This document shows, piece by piece, positions 6,601-64,000 of a stretch of 64,000 nucleotides of DNA. Under the pieces are notes generated by a model. That model saw only the letters and a program-made list of their open reading frames with translations, was not told where the DNA came from and made no database searches. The number at the start of each line of letters is the position of its first letter. Position 1 is the first letter of the stretch. The DNA comes from Eublepharis macularius (taxonomy: Eukaryota; Chordata; Lepidosauria; Squamata; Eublepharidae), in contig NC_072790.1 in NCBI RefSeq assembly GCF_028583425.1, positions 63,822,052 to 63,886,051 of the forward strand, given 5' to 3'. The translations under genes were made by a program, and so were the position numbers.

Positions 6601-6779
6601 TTCCCTCTGAAAGTAACGCAGATGAGGGGCTGCTTTCCCTATACGCCTTAGCTCATAGAACTGGACTCTCTGAAAATACCCCAAGAGCCGAGCTGACTTC
6701 AAGCCTTCCCAGCGCCTGAGAGGCCCTCGGGCTTCCTCAGCAGCAACCACGGGCTTGCCTGTTTCCATCCCAAAGAGGC
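3650..6779. other. Intergenic DNA between HCRTR2 and GFRAL
   Basis: No gene is supported. Visible features are a C-run near 4410, a GACA microsatellite near 4584, a TTTG microsatellite near 5825 and a G-run near 5871. Sequence near 4166-4210 (GGCCCCTTCCAACTCTAGGA) resembles the 3' end of CR1. The open frames of 127 and 110 residues around 4166-4734 match no family I recognise and lack exon signals. Confidence 0.5.
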
Positions 6780-6811
6780 GTCGCTCCTGCGCGCTCCACA
6801 CGCTGCCCAGC

Positions 6812-6838
6812 GCTGCTGCTGCTGCTGCTGCTGCTGCT
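6812..6838. repeat. (GCT)9 trinucleotide microsatellite
   Basis: Nine uninterrupted GCT units upstream of the GFRAL start, inside the CpG-rich segment. CAG/CTG tracts of this kind are often length-polymorphic. It lies outside the coding sequence. Confidence 0.9.
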
Positions 6839-7171
6839 TGTGCTTGTCATTAACAAACGCGGGTCTTATGAGGAAAGCCAGGCAGGGCCTCTATTCGTCC
6901 CGGCCGAGTTGCGCGACTTCTGCAAAGCCGCAACAGGTGTCAAGCGGAGGGCGGGCTCGGCCGCGCTAGGCTAGGCACAGCGGGGGCGAATCAGGCGGCG
7001 CTCCGGGCTCGCCCTCGGAGCGCGGCTGGACCAATCGCGCTCTTCCTCTGCCCGCCGGGCGCTGCCCAGCGAAACGTGGTGCTGAAATCACCGGCAGCCT
7101 CCGTGGAAAGAGTCCGGCGAGCAACAGGCACGAACAGCCTGCAACTCGCGGCGTCCGTGTCCGAAACGACG

Positions 7172-7193
7172 ATGACCTCCGCGCTGCTCACAG
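7172..7193 (+). CDS. GFRAL: GFRAL exon 1: start of signal peptide
   Basis: ATG ACC TCC GCG CTG CTC ACA G, then donor GTAAGT, leaving phase 1. Joined to exon 2 it reads MTSALLTVLVLYSM, a plausible signal peptide with a hydrophobic core. This start was chosen because the phase matches exon 2, the exon lies in a CpG-rich promoter, and it supplies the hydrophobic stretch that exon 2 alone lacks. The frame stays open upstream of the ATG, so an earlier start cannot be fully excluded, but the upstream residues are not signal-like. The exon is too short for homology to confirm. Confidence 0.72.
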
Positions 7194-7892
7194 GTAAGTG
7201 CTCCAGAGTTGTGCCGCGAGCACCCGGCTCCCGTCAGCGCTTGCTTGTGAGTGTGGCTCACTTGGTGTGGGACGACTCGGGGGCGGCTGAGCGCGCTCGG
7301 CAACGTCAGAACGAATCCCACACTTGTTGCTCTCCTGTGTGCCTTACTCTGGGGCTTCTTTTCCCGTAAAGGACACGGCAACCACTGTTGATGTTCTAAT
7401 CACATCTACAGTGCGCGGCGCTTTCTTTTTCTACTCCTCCTTACATACCAGGAAAAGGGTTTGGTTTTGTTTTAGTGTAAGTTTGTAAAGCCGGCGGGAC
7501 TGTGGGACAATATCTCCACCGTCTTTAAAATACAAACGGTATTAATGTTACTAGCAGGGGAAGCTGTATATGTAGGTTTATGTTCCTATTTTGCTATCCT
7601 CCTGGACTCCTTTAGACCGAGATCTACCTCTCTATGACTTGCTCTCTGTGTCTGTCAACTCTTCTCTCAAGTTTTGCCCCTGCATACAGCTGAACAGCAT
7701 AGACTTCATGTACACACGGCTCTTACAAATCATTCTCCTCAGCTATCCTAGGAATCACTGTGATGCTTTTCAAAGATATGTGCTTATTTCATTTGTGCCT
7801 ATTATTTCCCTACATTTATCACAGAGATAAGTGAGGGCCAAGTGGCTCTAGCATTCTCTGTGTCAATAAAAATAGAGAGCATAGAATAACAC

Positions 7893-11139: not shown

Positions 11140-13060
11140 AACCTCACTTAAGAACTTGTGCTCTGTGCAAATAATTTAGAGTTTGTTACCTCCTCATGGG
11201 CCATGGACCTGATAGACTCCATGGCGGCATTAGGACTCTCCCAGTTTGCATCAACGCCCACACGTCAAGCAGGACACAAGCTGGATTTGATCTTTGGAGT
11301 GGATATGGAGGAGCCTACAGTAGTGCCATGGTCAGACCACCTGACACCCCTCCCCCCCACTTGGGCGACAAGCTGATTTATGCTCGCCCACGGAGTCAAA
11401 TGGATCCAGTTGAATTCCAGAATGTTCTGCGGGATCTGATTCCCCCTCGTGGCTCATTGGATGAGCTGATAGAGGACTGGAATGCCATCTCTATGAAGCT
11501 ATCAACAAGATCACTCCCCGTCACCCTCTCCGCCCCCCGAACTAGAGTAGCTCCTTGGTATACCGAGGAGCTACGACAAATGAAATGGGAGCTGAGACAG
11601 CTAGCGCGAGTGTGGCGGCAACTCCGTGACAAAGTGACAAGAACATCTTATAGGACGTTTATGAGATGGCAGTGAAAGCTGCAAAGAGAGACTACTATGC
11701 AGCTTCCATTGCGTCCGCTAGTTCTCGCCCAGCACAACTTTCCAGAGGCCTTAAACGTCCCTCACACATGGGACGTTAAATTCCAAACCTGGCCATGGTA
11801 CAGAGGGGGCAGAGGGTGGCACTCAGGGAACAGATGTCCTCTCACTATTCTTTGGTATTCGGTGTCCCTCAGGGGGCGATTCTTTCCCTGATGCTATTTA
11901 ACATCTATATATGCTCCCTTGCCCAATTAGCTTGCAGCTTTGGGCTGGGTTGTCACCAGTATGCGGATGACACCCAGCTCTATCTGCTGATGGATGGCCA
12001 ATCTGATCTCACTCTGGATTCCTTGGCCAAGGGTCTTGAGGCTGTGAAGGGTCTTGAGGCTGTGAAGGGTCTTGAGGCTTACATCAGAGTCACCTGAAAT
12101 TGAATCCCCTGAAGACGGAGGATCTGTGTCTGGGTCATGGGGCAATCAAGCTGGGGACCCGGCTCCCAACCCTTGACGGGGTACAATTGAAACCTTCACC
12201 GATGGTGAGGAGCCTGAGTATGACCTTGGATGCCACACTTTCAATGGAGGCCCAGGTTGCAACTGTTGCCAGGTCTGTCTTTTTTCATCTTCAACAGGCC
12301 AGGCAACTGGCGCCCTATCTTTCACCCCAGGGCCTGGCTACAGTAATCCATGCAATGGTCACCTCCAGGCTAAACTACTGCAACTCACTCTATGCTGGGC
12401 TGGCCTTGGGCCTGACCCAGAAGTTACAGCTGGTCCAGAATGCAGCAGTACACGTCCTTACTGGAATGCCAATCCGAGCGCACATTCATCCTGTGCTGCG
12501 TCAGCTGCACTGGCTCCCAGTGGAGTTCTAGACCCAGTTCAAGGTGTTAACCATGGTGTTTAAAGCCCTTCACGGACTGGGACCTGCATACCTGTGGGAC
12601 CGTTTCTTCCATTATGTCCCTTGCAGGGCGTTGCGCTCTGCAGACAAGGAACTCCTGGTGCTCTCCAGCCCGAAGGACATCCCTGGCCCCAGCCTGGTGG
12701 AACACTCTCCCGCTGGAGATCTGAACTCTGTGGGACCTGTTACAGTTCTGCGGGGCCTGTAAAATGGAGATGTTCTGCTGGGCCTTTGGTTGAGTGCCAA
12801 CAGGTGTCCCCCTTCTTCCACCTAAGACCACCACTTTTTCTGGGACTGCCCTTGGCCATCTGCTATGCCCATATACGGACTCCCAAATATTTATTTAAAT
12901 AGCCTGCACCTGGACTATTTTAATGACTCTTAAGATTATTATTGATTTTTTGGTTTTGTGATTGATTCTCTGTGCTTTATGAATGTTGTTAGCCACCCTG
13001 AGCCCATTTGCGGGGAGGGTGGTGTATAAATAAAACAAACAAACAAATCAATAATGACCT
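11140..13060 (+). mobile_element. L2/CR1-group LINE, internally deleted
   Basis: In order along the plus strand: the end of an endonuclease domain (KLDLIFGV, PWSDHL, 11270-11345); a connector (APWYTEELRQMKWELRQLAR, about 11550-11610); the RT core from GVPQGAILSLMLFNIY (about 11855) with the catalytic YADDTQLYL (about 11960); then SRLNYCNSLYAGL and NAAVHVLTGMP towards the C-terminus. The 3' end near 12985-13055 has CACCCTGAGCCC and ATAAATAAAACAAACAAAC. Most of the RT fingers are missing between about 11690 and 11800, and the frame is broken in several places, so it is dead. Confidence 0.85.
12028..12079 (+). repeat. 18-bp tandem repeat, about three copies, inside LINE RT
   Basis: The unit GGTCTTGAGGCTGTGAAG occurs in tandem almost three times, giving the repeated peptide GLEAVK just after the YADD region of the LINE. 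The repeat keeps the frame because 18 is a multiple of three. Confidence 0.85.
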
Positions 13061-14863: not shown

Positions 14864-14995
14864 TGCTGGTGCTATATTCCATGACAACATCTACCTTCCA
14901 AACATCCAGGTGTCAACAACTGAGAGAGAAATGTAGCTCAACCATTAAGTGTGAAAGTATCTGGAAAGCAATTGAAGAAGCTTGTAGCATTCCAG
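14864..14995 (+). CDS. GFRAL: GFRAL exon 2: signal peptide end and first half of D1
   Basis: 132 nt between the acceptor TTTTTGTAG and the donor GTAACT, phases 1 to 1. It encodes residues 8-51: the rest of the signal peptide, then RCQQLREKCSSTIKCESIWK and AIEEACS. This lines up with the human GFRAL segment containing YLREQC and VMEDAC. D1 is the N-terminal domain; ligand contacts in the known GDF15-GFRAL complex are mainly in D2. An internal ATG at 14880 would give a protein without a signal peptide and is not favoured. Confidence 0.88.
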
Positions 14996-20917: not shown

Positions 20918-21067
20918 GTAACAGCTGTGCAGTGGAAGAATCAATTGACTGTAATAAACTTGTTGAGTTCTTGGTTAAAGAATATCCAGAATTTAAAGAC
21001 TGCAACTGCACAAAAGATGGCTGCAATATCCAAATGTTGCTCAACAAAGAATGTTTCATCAATAAAG
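20918..21067 (+). CDS. GFRAL: GFRAL exon 3: second half of D1
   Basis: 150 nt, phases 1 to 1, acceptor AATCCAG and donor GTAACT. It encodes residues 52-101, including CNKLVEFLVKEYPEFKDCNC, CNIQMLL and KECFINK. These match the human sequence around FKECLCTDD and GKKCINKS, so the exon completes the D1 domain of mammalian GFRAL. NCT in DCNCTKDG is a potential N-glycosylation site. In the human protein, as I recall it, the next residues already begin the linker to D2; here an extra exon follows. Confidence 0.9.
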
Positions 21068-23520: not shown

Positions 23521-24028
23521 TTAAAGTCTATTGTGGCTAATAAAATCCAGTAATCATGAAATGTCACCTGGCAGAATCTGTCTTTGGGCATATGATACAA
23601 AAGTCATAAAACAGAGATCATCACAACTATCCAGAAATCTCTGTTTGCCATTTTGAACAAATAAAGTCATTATTGATGGAGCTGTTGCCTGAAGTGAAAT
23701 TTTTAAAAACTTGCCTTCAGTAAAATGATGTTTCTTCATTGAATGCCTGATTACTTGTTTTGCTTATTCTTTTGTACATTGGCTCACATGAGTCAATGGA
23801 GAAAATATGTTGTGCTCTGGAAAACAGGGGTGGAGGAACACATACCTGCATGTCATGGAACGCCTATCCAGAAGGCCATGGGGTTTCCACTGCAACCCAG
23901 GACAGGTGTATGCCCCAAAACCCAATCCCTCCTTTTTTAAAGGGCTCATTTCACAGTAAGAATCTGAAATATGTTCTCCCTCACATGGTCCCCCCTGCTT
24001 ATCATTTGGTCAACATTTCATTCCACAG

Positions 24029-24442
24029 GGCAGCCAGTGCCTTCACCAGCCCCAGATGTTTGGGTTAGATTTCCACAGCCGACTAAATCAAATGAGATTG
24101 CACATCCGAGCATATTTGAAAATGACTGCTTTATTGCAAGAGAAATCTGCCAGAAAGATAATGCTTGCTGCTCGCTGTACAGACATTTTGAGAAGATGTG
24201 CCACACAGAGGAATCAGCTTGTAACTGCCAAACAGTGGGACACGAATGCTTTAAAGCCTGGCAGGACCTAAGGAAAACAATCTTGGGGGGTTGCAAGTGT
24301 CCAGAACCAAGGCATGAAAAATGCATCAGCATATGGAAAAATATCTTTAATAACTCATGCTTAAAGCATACACCAGAATCTCAAGTCTCATCCCTGAAGA
24401 AGAACACCTATGTAAATGTGAGACCTCAAAGCTTTGATAAGG
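24029..24442 (+). CDS. GFRAL: GFRAL exon 4: extra GFR-alpha-type cysteine-rich domain
   Basis: 414 nt, phases 1 to 1, between the acceptor TTCATTCCACAG and the donor GTAAAT; residues 102-239. A Pro/Ser-rich lead-in precedes a module with 12 cysteines: NDCFIAREICQKDNACCSLY, RHFEKMC, SACNC, HECFKAWQDL, GGCKC, EKCISIW and NNSC. The order DC..A..IC....C...Y then C.KAW..L..., GCKC and C..IW follows D1 of GFRA1-3 closely. Human GFRAL as I remember it has no counterpart: it passes from the D1 end straight to the short linker coded here by exon 5. The intact frame, conserved cysteine framework and clean splice sites argue that it is used. Alternatives: an exon skipped in most transcripts, or one kept in sauropsids and lost in mammals. 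Confidence 0.88.
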
Positions 24443-24794
24443 GTAAATGATCAACAGTGATATATTTTAAATAGCAGTAATTTCCATCCAAGGACTTCCT
24501 TTCTCCACTGTCTTTGGTTCCTAAAGTTTCTCAACACAGAACAATTGTATTGCTCTCTGTTTACAGGGAAATCTACCACACGATCATTTTCCAAGGGACA
24601 GCTTGTTGTTAAGTCTCTGGCCTGAAACAGAAAGACAGCAATTGTGAAATATCAAGCCTTCTCTATGCACTTCTTTTTGGGGCCAGGGTTAATGATGATA
24701 GAAATTATAGTAGGGTTCTGTTATATCTTGTACCAAAGCATGAATGGCTCTCACTTACAAAGAGACACTCACAAAAAAAATATAGATTAGCCAA

Positions 24795-28187: not shown

Positions 28188-28238
28188 ATCACAGAAATGC
28201 AGAAGCAGAGTGGCAGTTGTCTGCTCTGTTTAATGCTG
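28188..28238 (+). CDS. GFRAL: GFRAL exon 5: short linker exon
   Basis: 51 nt, phases 1 to 1, acceptor TTTTTTTGCAG and donor GTAAGA; residues 240-256, reading DHRNAEAEWQLSALFNA. It has no cysteine and resembles the human linker DNVKEDKFKWNLTTRS, with a shared W-x-L core, between D1 and D2. It is too short for a simple open-frame scan; it was found by phase-matched splice sites and by position. The weak similarity makes this exon less certain than its neighbours, but the frame works with or without it. Confidence 0.75.
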
Positions 28239-30551: not shown

Positions 30552-30879
30552 AATACAAACCGCAGCACTCCTGCCTCCATGTAAACGTGGAATGTGTTAG
30601 TGACACAGTCTGTAACAGGCAATTATCTCTGTATCTTGACAACTGCCAAGCAAGTGAGATGCCATGCAGTGTGAATCGATGCAAAACAGCACTAAGGAAC
30701 TTCTACAAAAATATGCCTTTTAATGTTGCCCAGAAGCTGACATTTTGTGACTGTGAGGAGTGGGATGAAAAATGTCTGCATGCAAAAGGATTTCTTCATG
30801 GCAAACCATATACCGACTTGGTTCAAGCTGCTTCGTGTCTCAGCCTAATTCAAACATGCCAAGGTGACAGTCTCTGCTG
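30552..30879 (+). CDS. GFRAL: GFRAL exon 6: D2 and start of D3
   Basis: 328 nt, entering in phase 1 and leaving in phase 2, acceptor TTTTCTTAG and donor GTAAGT; residues 257-365. It contains SCLHVNVECVSDTVCNRQLS, CSVNRCKTALRNFYKNMPFN and VAQKLTFCDC, aligned with human EACVGDVVCN, CQAAIRFFYQNIPFNIAQ and MLAFCDC. D2 of GFRAL is the main GDF15-binding domain in published mammalian structures. The exon ends in CLSLIQTCQGDSLC, the first disulfide segment of D3. All expected cysteines are present. Confidence 0.97.
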
Positions 30880-33346: not shown

Positions 33347-33597
33347 GGAGAAATATAAAGCGTTCACATCAAAGTGTTTAAAACACATCTCCCAATCATG
33401 TCTTGAAAATAATGCCTGCATAGAATACTTGGATGCAAGTGATTTTAATTGCTCTGACAGTGCTGAGTGCAGAAAAGCTTATATCGACATGTGGGGAACC
33501 ATCCGCCCTGCAGAGTGCACTTGTGACGTCAGATCACCCGCGGAACGATCTACATGCAAGCTGTTCCATCACACCCTCCAAAGAAACTCCTGCTTCA
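33347..33597 (+). CDS. GFRAL: GFRAL exon 7: D3
   Basis: 251 nt, phase 2 to phase 1, acceptor TTTCTACAG and donor GTAAGT; residues 366-449. It encodes EKYKAFTSKCLKHISQSC, CIEYLD, FNCSDSAECRKAYIDMWGTI and AECTC, then CKLFHHTLQRNSCF. These match human D3 (CKAAYIDILGT, VQCTC, CKIFQHMLHRKSCF). NCS in FNCSDS is a possible N-glycosylation site. D3 is the part of the receptor that faces RET in known complexes. The donor lies directly after the last cysteine pair. Confidence 0.97.
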
Positions 33598-36894: not shown

Positions 36895-36990
36895 GTCAGA
36901 TAGCAGGCAGAAAGGCTGTGCATTACCCATTGCATACAGATCTGCCTGAAACAAAACCTTCTGTGACACACAAGAAATCCTTATTTGCTG
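36895..36990 (+). CDS. GFRAL: GFRAL exon 8: juxtamembrane stalk
   Basis: 96 nt, phases 1 to 1, acceptor TGTTTATAG and donor GTAGGC; residues 450-481, beginning SQIAGRKAVHYPLHTDLPET. It has no cysteine and little sequence similarity to the human stalk, but the same position, similar length and same phases. It was identified by splice sites and the unbroken frame joining D3 to the transmembrane exon. Confidence 0.82.
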
Positions 36991-39386: not shown

Positions 39387-39468
39387 GTGACAAAATCTAC
39401 ATTGCAATCTATTCCTGTTGTGTAATTCTTATCCTGGGATTAGTCCTACTGGCTTTACTTAAGACCAG
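39387..39468 (+). CDS. GFRAL: GFRAL exon 9: transmembrane helix
   Basis: 82 nt, phase 1 to 2, acceptor AAATTCTAG and donor GTAATG; residues 482-508. It encodes GDKIYIAIYSCCVILILGLV and LLALLKTR, one hydrophobic helix of about 20 residues with a basic stop-transfer end. This agrees with human GFRAL, which is a type I membrane protein, unlike the GPI-anchored GFRA1-4. Confidence 0.92.
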
Positions 39469-47640: not shown

Positions 47641-49036
47641 GAAAGATAGAGATCTCTCAGTGTCAAACTGTGGAGAAGATGTTTATATCTACTCAGGAAG
47701 GTGGGTTTGGGTTGTGTCATCCTGTAAGAGTTTCCCAGGGTGTGGAATACTAATGGAATGTTAATGCTTCACTGTATCCTGAGGAGGTTCTTTTGCATAT
47801 GGATTGGTGCTTGATATGCTAATCTTATCTCTAGGGCTATTGTAAGATGTAGAGTATTTTGTTAGCCTGGTGTTTTTCAGGACTGGAAACCATGCTCTAT
47901 TCATTCTTAAAGTCTCTTCATTCCTGTTGAAGTTGTGCTTATGCTTATGAATTTCAGTGGCTTCCCTGTGCAATCTGACAAAGTAGTTGGAAGTGTTGTC
48001 CAGTATTTTAGTGTCCTGGAATAAGATACTGTGTCCTGTTTGAGTTAGGCTATATTCAGCCACTGCTGATTTTTCAGGTTGGCCAAGTCTGCAGCGTCTT
48101 TTATTCTTGTCTGGATGCTACGCTGTGTGGTCCCAATGTAAACTTGTCCACAGCTGCAGGGTATGTGGTATACTCCTGCAGAGGTGAGGGGGGTCTCTAC
48201 TGTCTTTTGCTGATCGTAGCATCTGTTCTATTTTTCTGGTGGGTCTGAATACTGTTTGTAGGTTGTGCTTTTTCATAAGCTTTCCCATCTGATCAGTGAT
48301 TCCTTTAATATATGGCAAAAACACTTTTCCTGTGGGAGACTGTTTTTCCTTAGTTGTTTGATTTATCCTTGGTTTAATTGCTCTTCTAATTTCATTTCTG
48401 GAGTAGCCATTTGCTTGAAGTGCATGGTTTAGATGATTAATTTCCTCGTTGAGAGAGTGCAGTTCTCATATCCGTCTTGCACGGTCTACTAATGTTTTTA
48501 TTATGCCTCTTTTCTGTCGAGGGTGGTGATTGGATTTTTTGTGTAAGTACCGATCCGTGTGAGTTGGTTTCCTGTAGACTTTGTGACCTAACTGAAAGTT
48601 TGCTTTGTGGATGACCAAGGTACCTAGAAATGGGAGTTTATCCTTGATTTCTTTCTCCATGGTGAATTGTATGTTCAGGTGGATGTTGTTGAGGTGGTTT
48701 AAAAATTCCATCAATTCTTCCTCACCATGGCTCCAAATGATAAAGGCATCGTCCATGAACCGGAACCAGACTGTAGGTTTGTGGGGTGCTGATTCTAGAG
48801 CTGTTTTTTTCAAAATGTTCTATGTAGAAGTTTACTATAACTGGGCTGAGAGGGCTTCCCACGGCCACCCCATCCATCTGTTCATAGAATTGGTTATCCC
48901 ATTGGAAGTAACTGGTTGTCAGACAATGGTGGAATAAGGCTGTTACATCCTCTGGAAAAATCTGATTAATAAGTGCAATTGTGTCTTTTACTGGAACCTT
49001 AGTAAACAGGGATACAACATCAAAACTGACGAGTAT

Positions 49037-49199
49037 TATGTTTGCATAATTGTCGCTTATATCAATCATATGTATTTGCTATGGCTATAAAAATTGAGAT
49101 AGCAGAGTTTATGTATATAGTTTATACTATTTCTTCAACTTGAATGTTTATTGATTGTGTATTTTATTTCAATTTAATAAAAATCTTAAAAATTAAAAA
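49037..49199 (+). mobile_element. A-tailed LINE-like fragment inserted in the PLE
   Basis: AAAACTGACGAGTAT occurs at 49022-49036 and 49200-49214, a perfect 15-bp duplication. Between them is AT-rich sequence ending TTTAATAAAAATCTTAAAAA and an A-run. A-tail plus 15-bp TSD indicates target-primed (L1-type) retrotransposition. It lies in the PLE reverse transcriptase, splitting the ILVSF/DVVSLF block. Confidence 0.85.
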
Positions 49200-49847
49200 A
49201 AAACTGACGAGTATGTCCTGTGGATTGAGTTTCAGAGAACTGATTTTGTTGATGAAATGTGCTGAATCTTTGATGTAAGACGTGGTTTTTCCAATGTGGT
49301 CCTGTAGAAGATTGGCCAGATGTTTAGCTAATTCATATGTCGGTGAACCAATGGCACTCACGATGGGTCAGAGTGGGACTGAATCCTTATGAATTATAGG
49401 GAGTCCATATAGTCGTGGTGGCTGTGCTTCCGTCTTGCATAGTTTTCTGTGCGTGTCGGGATGAAATGAGGAATTCTTGATCAGCGCCATTTGTTAGCCT
49501 GGTAATTTTGTGGGTTGGATCTCATTTTAGTTTTTTGTAGGTAGAAGGGTCCAGGAGCTCCTTAATCTTCCTTTTGTATTCTTCTGTTTTCATGATCACT
49601 GTGGCATTGCCTTTGTCAGCTGGTAGAATAATGATGTCTGGATCCGCATTGAGGGTCTTGATGGTGTTCCTCTCCTTGCATGTTATGTTGCTGGTGGGAA
49701 GCTTTGCCTTTTGTAGAATCCTGGCTGTCTCTCCTCTTATTTCCTCAGCTTCCTCTTCAGGTAGATGACGAATGGCAGCTTCTACATTTGCAATGATGTA
49801 TTCCACAGGACATCTTCTCCACAGTTTGACACTGAGAGATCTGTCTT

Positions 49848-49907
49848 TTGGTGCTACACCTCTGAAGATGCCAGTCACAGCTGCTGGCGAAACGTCCGGA
49901 ACTACAA
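49848..49907 (+). ncRNA. Hammerhead ribozyme-like motif (5' terminal repeat of the PLE)
   Basis: Plus strand: CTGAAGA (49862-49868), stem II GCCAG/CTGGC, GAAA (49889-49892), CGTC, then CGG. The core is intact, but the first stem I base after the cleavage triplet is C where the other copies have A. It is antisense to the coding strand because the terminal repeats are inverted. Confidence 0.6.
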
Positions 49908-49998
49908 TGCCAAGACCACGGCGATACAGCCCGTAAGATCCACAACAACCGTCATTCTCCAGCCGTGAAAGCCTTCAACAATACATGGAGTTCCTCTG

Positions 49999-56946: not shown

Positions 56947-57048
56947 TCAGCCACTGAAGGAAGCTTGTGCAACTTTAGAATTTGTTTTCTTGTTTAAAGC
57001 TGTGCAGATGAAATTTCCAGCTTCCATAACCTTGTAAAGATTCACACC
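56947..57048 (-). CDS. HMGCLL1: HMGCLL1 terminal coding exon
   Basis: On the minus strand, after the acceptor TCATTTTAG, the exon reads [20 protein letters not shown] then [13 protein letters not shown] and TGA (56947-56949): 33 codons plus stop, entering in phase 0. It matches the C-terminus of 3-hydroxymethyl-3-methylglutaryl-CoA lyase-like 1, an extramitochondrial HMG-CoA lyase acting in ketone-body and leucine metabolism. [10 protein letters not shown] and SKVAQASF favour HMGCLL1 over HMGCL, which ends ATCKL and carries a peroxisomal-type CKL. Its phase fits the exon at 62098-62223. Confidence 0.95.
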
Positions 57049-62097: not shown

Positions 62098-62223
62098 CGT
62101 GTTGATCCCTAAACCATTAAGCATGTATATTAAATCTTCTGTGGCGACATTTCCTGTGGCGCCTTTCGCATATGGACAGCCTCCTAAACCAGCAACAGCA
62201 GAATCCACCACACTGACCCCCAT
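62098..62223 (-). CDS. HMGCLL1: HMGCLL1 penultimate coding exon
   Basis: 126 nt on the minus strand, acceptor TTGCTTTCTAG and donor GTAAGA, phase 0 at both ends. It encodes [20 protein letters not shown] then [36 protein letters not shown] is the HMG-CoA lyase signature loop with the catalytic cysteine of the TIM-barrel C-terminal region. The exon is intact and matches HMGCL/HMGCLL1 nearly residue for residue. Gene identity follows from the next exon and from synteny with GFRAL. Confidence 0.96.
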
Positions 62224-64000
62224 CTAGAAAGCAATCACAGCACCACCAAAGTCATGTTTCCATCAAGCTGATCATTCACAATTAAAATGCACATGCAGCT
62301 GCGCTATGTCTAAGCTGAACACATTTTCTTCATTTCATGGGTAACTATACACACACACACACACACACAAAACACACCCTGTGTTTTGTGTGGTGTTGCA
62401 TTTTAGACAATAATGTGTGACTCCACTTTTGCACATGTACCAAGTTCCTAACATGCTCCTACCAAGTTGCAGTAGTCCCGAGAGAACAAAAACACTTTAC
62501 ATCTTGCAATGTTGTTCCAAACAGTGAAATCCAATGGAGATTTACTCCAAACTAAAATCATTGCTTTCAATGGGCTTAGTCTAGATTAACTCTGCATAGT
62601 TTTGAAATTATATGTGGGGGGGGAATGGGTCACTGGGATTTAAGTATATGATGGACTGCATTCATGAACAGGATTTTTAAAAAATCTTGTGTGAAAATAC
62701 TATTTTCACTATGTTTTCAAAAGAGATTATCTCAATTAGCAGCATCCAGCGGTCTAGCATTTGGCAACCCCAACAAGCAATCACAAGAAACAGGATCCTT
62801 GGCACTCATAGCTCCTTTATTGCATCGGCTTTTTTCAATGTCTAAAAACAGTGCATCACATAAAATTTTACTGGAATCTAACCCTAAAAACAAATTGCCA
62901 GAAATAGGCCTGTAACAAACCTTGCCAAAGACAGGCTAGCCATGTGTGCTGGTCTGTTTGATGATGGTCAAGTCTCCCGCACACTCACACCTCTGCTCGT
63001 ACATTTCCAAGCAAGCAACAAAACCAAAAGGTTACCTGAGCTCCTTGAGGACTGCAGTGCACAGGTGGTATCCTGCATTCAGCTTGGCAAGTTACTACTT
63101 GTGCAGGCCTGGCCTATCAGCTCTTGAACAAGGATGGAAAATGGCAGGGCCCACTTGTCTACTGGGATATTAAACCAATTTATAGCCTGCTTTATCAGAT
63201 TAGATAAGTGAGCAATAAAAAGAGGCAGGCTGCTCAAGATCACCTCCACAGTTGAGCCAATTTGAAGAGGTCTTTACCAAATCACTACACAGGTGGTCTT
63301 GCTTTTTAAAAAAATCAAGTATCTTGGATACCATCCAAATGCTTTCAAGGTTAAATCTTTGGATAAAAGAGTGATAATTAAAGAACTATGTCACTATAAA
63401 GCTGCTCTACAAGACTCAGAGTGAATTTAATGTATTATAAGGCATCAGCTAACATAATATGGACTTTAATGTATTTAGTTGTATTGAAATACAGGCAATA
63501 TTCAATAGGAATAGTTACTAGTATATGTTTGGGAGAAAAGCTGCTTATATTCTCCCTTGCATGCATTTGAGTGATTACCATTTTCCACTTGCAAATATTC
63601 ACATATCGAAGTGACAAAACTTTGTCTACAGGTTACTCCTCAATGTGTCAGAGGCAGCTGTGATTAAGTGCACCAACTAAAGGTCTCCCAAAGCTACATA
63701 AACAATATGAATGGACTTTAGACTTCTACAAATGAGTAAATATGGCCCAGTATGATGGACGAGTTTTTGTTTGGCTGTTAATATTCCATGTGTTGCTGAA
63801 ATCTATTGTGCTTTACTGGGCAAAAGCAGCAAAACATGAATTGCTGGTTCCCGTGTGGTTAGGCTGCCAGGTTGCCTGCCACAGTGGGCAAGTGCTGCCA
63901 CTCAGTGGAGCAGTGACAGTAAATATGGGGGGGGGGGAGCATTGTGTGGTGCCATGACATCAAATTTCAGGTACGCAACTGGAAGTGATGTAACAATGCT
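62224..64000 (-). other. HMGCLL1: HMGCLL1 intron (partial)
   Basis: The preceding exon, which should encode CHDTYGQAL, is not seen and probably lies right of the window. There is a (CA)n run at 62351-62380 and G-runs near 62617 and 63930. A diverged 14391-type sequence lies near 62520-62600. Otherwise nothing recognised. Confidence 0.55.
62351..62380. repeat. (CA)n microsatellite
   Basis: About ten CA/AC dinucleotides, followed by AAAACACACC, in an HMGCLL1 intron. Confidence 0.85.

Follow-up and report, generated by a model that had tools for sequence, protein, structure and literature searches.

GFRAL is the known receptor for GDF15, a hormone of sickness and appetite, and a target for drugs against cachexia, nausea and obesity. 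In the human complexes, the ligand binds to D2 and RET to D3 while the D1 domain of GFRAL is disordered, and D1 of human GFRA2 packs on D3 and touches CLD1 of RET (PMC6760901). In zebrafish GFRA1, which has an SPYE linker, D1 packs on D3, and D1 of human GFRAL, which has no SPYE, has been placed at low resolution beneath the wings of RET beside D2 and D3 (PMC8266384). The same paper describes D1 as absent from GFRA4. A TATA box has been reported for the human GFRAL gene, which consists of nine exons, and in mouse, skipping of exon 6 yields a variant that has no D3 (PMC7299427). The Drosophila receptor Gfrl (DmGfrl) has four GFR domains in series, D0 to D3, is GPI-anchored, is more than 1000 residues long and, according to PMC3527400, does not mediate RET phosphorylation; that source also proposes a common origin for the D1 to D3 exons of insects, sea urchin and vertebrates.

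The window, the whole stretch of 64,000 nucleotides analysed here (C1:63822052-63886051), comes from one gecko genome, whose assembly spans 2.24 Gb over 72 contigs. Its plus strand carries a GFRAL gene, of which nine exons have been placed with AG/GT borders and compatible phases (Table 1), and these exons joined together encode 508 residues free of stops. When exon 4 is left out, the protein matches human GFRAL (6q2j_C) with an E-value of 7.1e-68 across the N-terminal domain, D2 and D3, the next-best match in the PDB comparison being GFRA2 with an E-value of 8.1e-5, and the three domains are, in this order, 42%, 47% and 43% identical to those of human GFRAL. Exon 9 encodes a transmembrane helix reading GDKIYIAIYSCCVILILGLVLLALLKT, not a GPI anchor, and the stalk encoded by exon 8 presumably resembles that of human GFRAL. 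A motif-bound scan found no cytoplasmic exon of GFRAL. Two HMGCL-like exons on the minus strand lie in convergent orientation to GFRAL, facing its 3' end, and are taken as HMGCLL1, which we take to be the neighbour of GFRAL in human as well. By its closest domains, its transmembrane helix and this neighbour gene, the gene is the GFRAL orthologue. It shares with human GFRAL (6q2j_C, 5vz4_B) the N-terminal domain, D2, D3, the transmembrane helix and the opposite-strand HMGCL-like neighbour, and differs from it in exon 4, which has no counterpart in the nine-exon human gene (PMC7299427).

Around exon 1, the interval 6700-7200 is rich in G+C and CpG and looks by eye like a CpG-island promoter. Two open stretches (11175-12531 and 47761-49974) were read by eye as fragments of retrotransposon reverse transcriptase, and repeats in the window resemble Sauria SINEs, as would be expected of a squamate.

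Table 1. Exons and sequence features placed in the window
Feature	Positions	Strand	Description
Exon 1	7172..7193	+	Start codon and first half of signal peptide (reading of sequence)
Exon 2	14864..14995	+	Remainder of signal peptide; first half of D0, the N-terminal GFR domain (human 'D1')
Exon 3	20918..21067	+	Second half of N-terminal GFR domain (D0)
Exon 4 (extra)	24029..24442	+	414 nt, phase 1-1; fourth GFR module and flanking linkers
GFR domain core of exon 4 (NDCFIA...SCLKH)	24121..24369	+	12 cysteines, D1 type by profile and pairwise score
TPES	24370..24381	+	Aligned with SPYE of the GFRA1-3 D1-D2 linker, one of four residues identical
Exon 5	28188..28238	+	51-nt linker exon, phase 1-1
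Exon 6	30552..30879	+	D2 (GDF15-binding domain in human)
Exon 7	33347..33597	+	D3 (RET-contacting domain in human)
Exon 8	36895..36990	+	Stalk
Exon 9	39387..39468	+	Transmembrane helix
HMGCL-like exon	56959..57048	-	76.7% identity with human HMGCL; synteny marker, assigned to HMGCLL1
HMGCL-like exon	62098..62256	-	69.0% identity with human HMGCL; synteny marker, assigned to HMGCLL1

A sequence-only reading of the window had described exon 4 as a 414-nt exon with clean splice sites, an intact frame and 12 cysteines, lying between the end of the mammalian 'D1' and the linker exon and having no human equivalent, and each of these features was found again. The exon is directly preceded by catttcattccacag and directly followed by gtaaatgat, its frame is open from stop to stop over 23968-24450, the encoded domain contains 12 cysteines, exons 3 and 5 flank it, and 6q2j_C, aligned from the N-terminal domain through D3 to the protein read without exon 4, has no insertion at the exon 4 site. 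Since D3 is encoded by exon 7 here and by exon 6 in the mouse numbering, there is one additional exon before D3. Since exon 4 is in phase 1 at both ends, the frame is kept both on inclusion and on skipping, and GFRAL without exon 4 has a mammal-like frame that reads through D2. The donor of exon 4 (AGG/GTAAAT) agrees with the consensus at five of seven positions, the nine donors placed in the gene ranging from four to seven, and is not weaker than four of the eight other GFRAL donors; its position +5 is A, not G. In a rough neutral simulation of 4000 copies with indels, the frame and splice sites survive in 4.5%, 0.2% and 0.03% of the copies at 0.05, 0.1 and 0.15 substitutions per site, respectively, and with substitutions only, 35%, 13% and 6% of the copies stay intact at the same distances. 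On this modelling, exon 4 is likely to have been under constraint until recently.

These properties bear on the possibility that exon 4 survives as a leftover, passed over in most transcripts or already in decay, and that the working receptor has three modules. A frame that survives skipping and the A at +5 of the donor would suit such an exon, but its frame and its 12 cysteines are undamaged, as are the two splice sites, neutral copies rarely stay so even at 0.05 and 0.1 substitutions per site in the rough simulation, and the donor at least equals half of the other eight, so that we regard a leftover as unlikely. Exon 4 is instead, as part of an explanation that we consider probable as a whole, a true coding exon of this GFRAL gene, and it would be included in the mRNA. 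The exon is probably present in automatically predicted GFRAL models from outside mammals, although this is a guess.

By profile and pairwise score, exon 4 encodes a D1-type GFR domain. It matches the GDNF/GAS1 family of Pfam (PF02351, gathering cut-off 22 bits) with 25.8 bits over profile positions 1-87 of 87, and has 12 cysteines against a family pattern of about ten, eight of them aligned with those of GFRA1 D1 in our reading of the alignment. A phmmer search of exon 4 against the PDB returned 15 matches with E-values up to 10, including D1 of GFRA3 (1.1e-6), zebrafish GFRA1 (0.0082), GFRA2 (0.24) and a second GFRA3 chain (0.28); GFRAL is absent from these 15. Ten neuraminidases (E-values from 0.14 to 1.3) and one antibody chain among the same matches were taken as chance, and no relative was found in viral contigs. 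A first profile test used 19 domains, taken from PDB chains and from the gene itself. In it, exon 4 scores 32.0 bits on the four-member D1 profile against 15.5 on D3, 7.4 on D2 and 4.5 on D0, and all 18 other domains score best on their own group with self left out. When the residues of exon 4 are shuffled with the cysteines fixed, the D1 score is reached by none of 1000 shuffles, the D0 score by 12 and the D2 score by 18; none reaches the D3 score either, so that a weaker link between exon 4 and D3 is real. Without human GFRA3 in the four-member profile, the D1 score of exon 4 falls to 18.5 against 16.1 for D3. In a D1-profile scan of 1728 open stretches of at least 25 amino acids on both strands, exon 4 alone stands out, with 30.0 bits against 7.0 for the next.

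A second profile test comprised 29 domain cores after addition of the same-genome relatives GFRA1 (C6), GFRA2 (C14), GFRA3 (C4), GFRA4 (C10) and GAS1 (C8), which were named by sequence reading. Exon 4 scores 30.7 bits on D1 (8 members), 16.1 on D3 (6), 6.7 on GAS1 (2), 6.2 on D2 (10) and 2.7 on D0 (2), and its D1 score is 23.8 without both GFRA3s. Since the other D1s score 3 to 16 on D3, the D3 score of exon 4 is at the upper end for a D1. Pairwise Z scores of exon 4 from cysteine-fixed shuffles are 5.4-10.0 for D1, 1.5-5.0 for D3, 1.1-2.4 for D0, 1.6-1.7 for GAS1 and 0.4-1.9 for D2, all eight D1s thus exceeding every one of the 20 other domains (maximum 5.0), and hhalign gives 96% for D1 (E 2.4e-9), 60% for D3 and 4% for D0. 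The claim that the module is D1-like is thereby borne out by the Pfam, PDB, profile and pairwise scores together. GAS1 has GFR domains of the same Pfam family, but carries two of them in one open frame of 414 codons, and exon 4 scores low on it, as given above.

The exon structure of D1 was compared with that of the GFRA1-4 genes in the same genome. In all four, D1 lies in a single open stretch, as it does in exon 4, and a phase-1 donor is present just past the last helix of D1, these sites being consensus candidates. A phase-1 acceptor candidate is also present in all four, but it has the longest pyrimidine tract in GFRA1 and GFRA4 only, whereas in GFRA2 and GFRA3 the longest tract belongs to another acceptor candidate. 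Phase alone does not discriminate, since GFRAL exons 2 and 3 are of phase 1-1 too. Exon 4 extends about 30 codons beyond the end of the GFRA D1 exon, over the linker. The SPYE linker motif of GFRA1-3, which lies outside the domain core, is absent from exon 4, where TPES stands at the aligned place, and a motif scan of the same-genome stretches searched found no SPYE exon. Exon 4 resembles D1 of GFRA1-4 in profile, pairwise Z, hhalign, its site before the linker and D2 and, by the open stretches and candidate splice sites, its confinement to one exon, and differs in having 12 cysteines instead of 8, TPES instead of the SPYE of GFRA1-3, and a longer exon.

Trees of these short domains, of about 80 residues, are too weak to decide the placement: exon 4 groups with D1 three times (support 93/92, 90/76 and 72/77), and in a tree of the same short domains without D2 it groups with D3 (58/92). 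AU tests reject no alternative placement of exon 4. One test gives p values of 0.294 for exon 4 with D0, 0.196 with D3 and 0.103 with D2, and 0.191 for D0 with D1; another gives 0.256, 0.106 and 0.0745 for exon 4 in the same order and 0.258 for D0 with D1; the minimum in the third is 0.08, for D0. The mean identity of exon 4 is 27.0% to D1 of GFRA1-3, 26.0% to D3 and 25.5% to D0, against a background of 21-24% on average between unlike GFRA domains, so plain identity does not discriminate. Since the D1s of GFRA1-3 are 31-77% identical among themselves, an identity of 27% to them indicates that exon 4 is not a recent copy. D2 and D3 of GFRAL are 24.2-26.1% and 27.0-28.5% identical to their GFRA counterparts, and the divergence of exon 4 matches in depth, as far as can be told from such comparisons, what the remainder of GFRAL shows. 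No near copy of exon 4 was found elsewhere in the window.

Two origins had been offered in the sequence-only reading, an ancestral module lost by mammals or a gain in this lineage, and the former fits better, because exon 4 is closest to the D1s of GFRA1-4, not to its neighbour domain in GFRAL, and about as diverged from the GFRA1-3 D1s as D2 and D3 of GFRAL are from their GFRA counterparts. In naming sauropsids, that reading extrapolates from this one genome, where the module is intact, and the change in receptor geometry or ligand range that it proposes is a prediction. A lineage-specific gain would mean that, after the split from mammals, GFRAL acquired the exon as a copy from one of the GFRA genes or of some other GFR domain. 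Such a gain accords with evidence that covers one genome, with the AU tests that leave a pairing of exon 4 with D0 (p 0.294) or with D3 (p 0.196) unrejected, with the one tree that sides with D3, and with human GFRA3 D1 as the best PDB match. It sits poorly, however, with an identity to the GFRA1-3 D1s that is below the range among those D1s and similar to that of GFRAL D2 and D3 to their counterparts (24-28.5%), with a window free of any near copy, and with the D1 position of exon 4 before the linker and D2, and it is accordingly a doubtful account of the exon.

If exon 4 is D1, the N-terminal domain that is called D1 in human GFRAL would be another domain, here designated D0. On the eight-member D1 profile, the N-terminal domain scores 9.0 bits in human and 7.1 here, against 30.7 for exon 4. 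D1 is nevertheless its nearest other group in the profile comparison, ahead of D2, D3 and GAS1; hhalign gives 22% for D0 to D1, and its D1 score is reached by 11 and 15 of 1000 shuffles. On these scores, D0 and D1 may be old sisters. D0 is split here over exons 2 and 3, each of phase 1-1, and GFRAL in this genome has four GFR domains, probably in the order D0-D1-D2-D3. In separate queries of the Pfam GDNF profile, the N-terminal domain scores 15.4 bits here, and that of human GFRAL gives no match up to an E-value of 10. Because D0 falls under the cut-off, Pfam counts three GFR stretches in this gene. That the human 'D1' is the true D1, and exon 4 a GFR domain that was inserted or arose by internal duplication and happened to retain more D1-like residues, is improbable too: D1 is the nearest other group of D0, weakly, and the AU tests leave D0 with D1 unrejected (p 0.258 and 0.191), but the D1-profile scores of the N-terminal domains are far below that of exon 4, two exons share the N-terminal domain in this gene, and D1 of human GFRAL has no SPYE and lies in another position (PMC8266384).

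The cysteines of the gene show a further difference from human. D2 here has 9 cysteines against 10 in the D2s of human GFRAL and GFRA1-3, the missing one being the last (...LHSKTC in human, ...FLHGKPY here). Since the four modules have 43 cysteines in total, an odd number, at least one must be unpaired.

Weighed together, the sequence comparisons make it probable that exon 4 is the GFRAL counterpart of the D1 of GFRA1-4, that the ancestral receptor had the order D0-D1-D2-D3, that the human 'D1' is D0, and that D1 was lost on the way to human. The phase-symmetric D1 exon would have been dropped with the frame unbroken. The broader proposition that the mammalian 'D1' is an ancient D0, that the true D1 exon was deleted whole toward mammals and that four-module GDF15 receptors persist outside mammals is, on balance, slightly favoured. 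Mammalian GFRA4, as described in PMC8266384, is likewise a GDNF receptor without D1, although it differs from the proposed mammalian GFRAL in keeping no D0. The GFRA4-like gene of this genome (L006, G000 C10:4809009-4812239) has an intact D1 at 1315-1899. Since GFRA4 is described without D1 and the GFRA4-like gene here has it, the loss of D1 is matched in a sister gene, and D1 would have been lost twice among the mammalian GFR receptors if this reading is true. A four-domain vertebrate receptor would also fit the precedent of DmGfrl. The likeness between the two is one of domain count, any homology of their D0s being hypothetical, and DmGfrl differs in being GPI-anchored and longer than 1000 residues (PMC3527400).

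The literature search found no fourth GFRAL domain reported in the titles and abstract openings among the matches listed. Airaksinen 2006 and Hatinen 2007 reportedly cover GDNF receptors across vertebrates and may already mention such a domain.

In a four-module GFRAL, D2 would bind GDF15 and D3 would bind RET by analogy with mammals, D1 may pack near D3 and CLD1 of RET in the manner of zebrafish GFRA1 and human GFRA2, and D0 would form a further N-terminal arm. Since TPES stands in place of SPYE, the contact between D1 and D3 may differ. The loss of D1 would have brought D0 next to D2, and if the human 'D1' is D0 adjoining D2 after this loss, its odd position in the RET complex and its lack of SPYE would be explained with no further cause needed. 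The mammalian 'D1' may therefore be the misnamed domain, a consequence that goes beyond the sequence-only reading. If non-mammalian GFRAL has both D0 and D1, the position of the human 'D1', its disorder in cryo-EM and the missing SPYE would share one historical cause; the domain names of GFRAL would need revision, and GDF15-GFRAL-RET complexes outside mammals would be predicted to be built differently.
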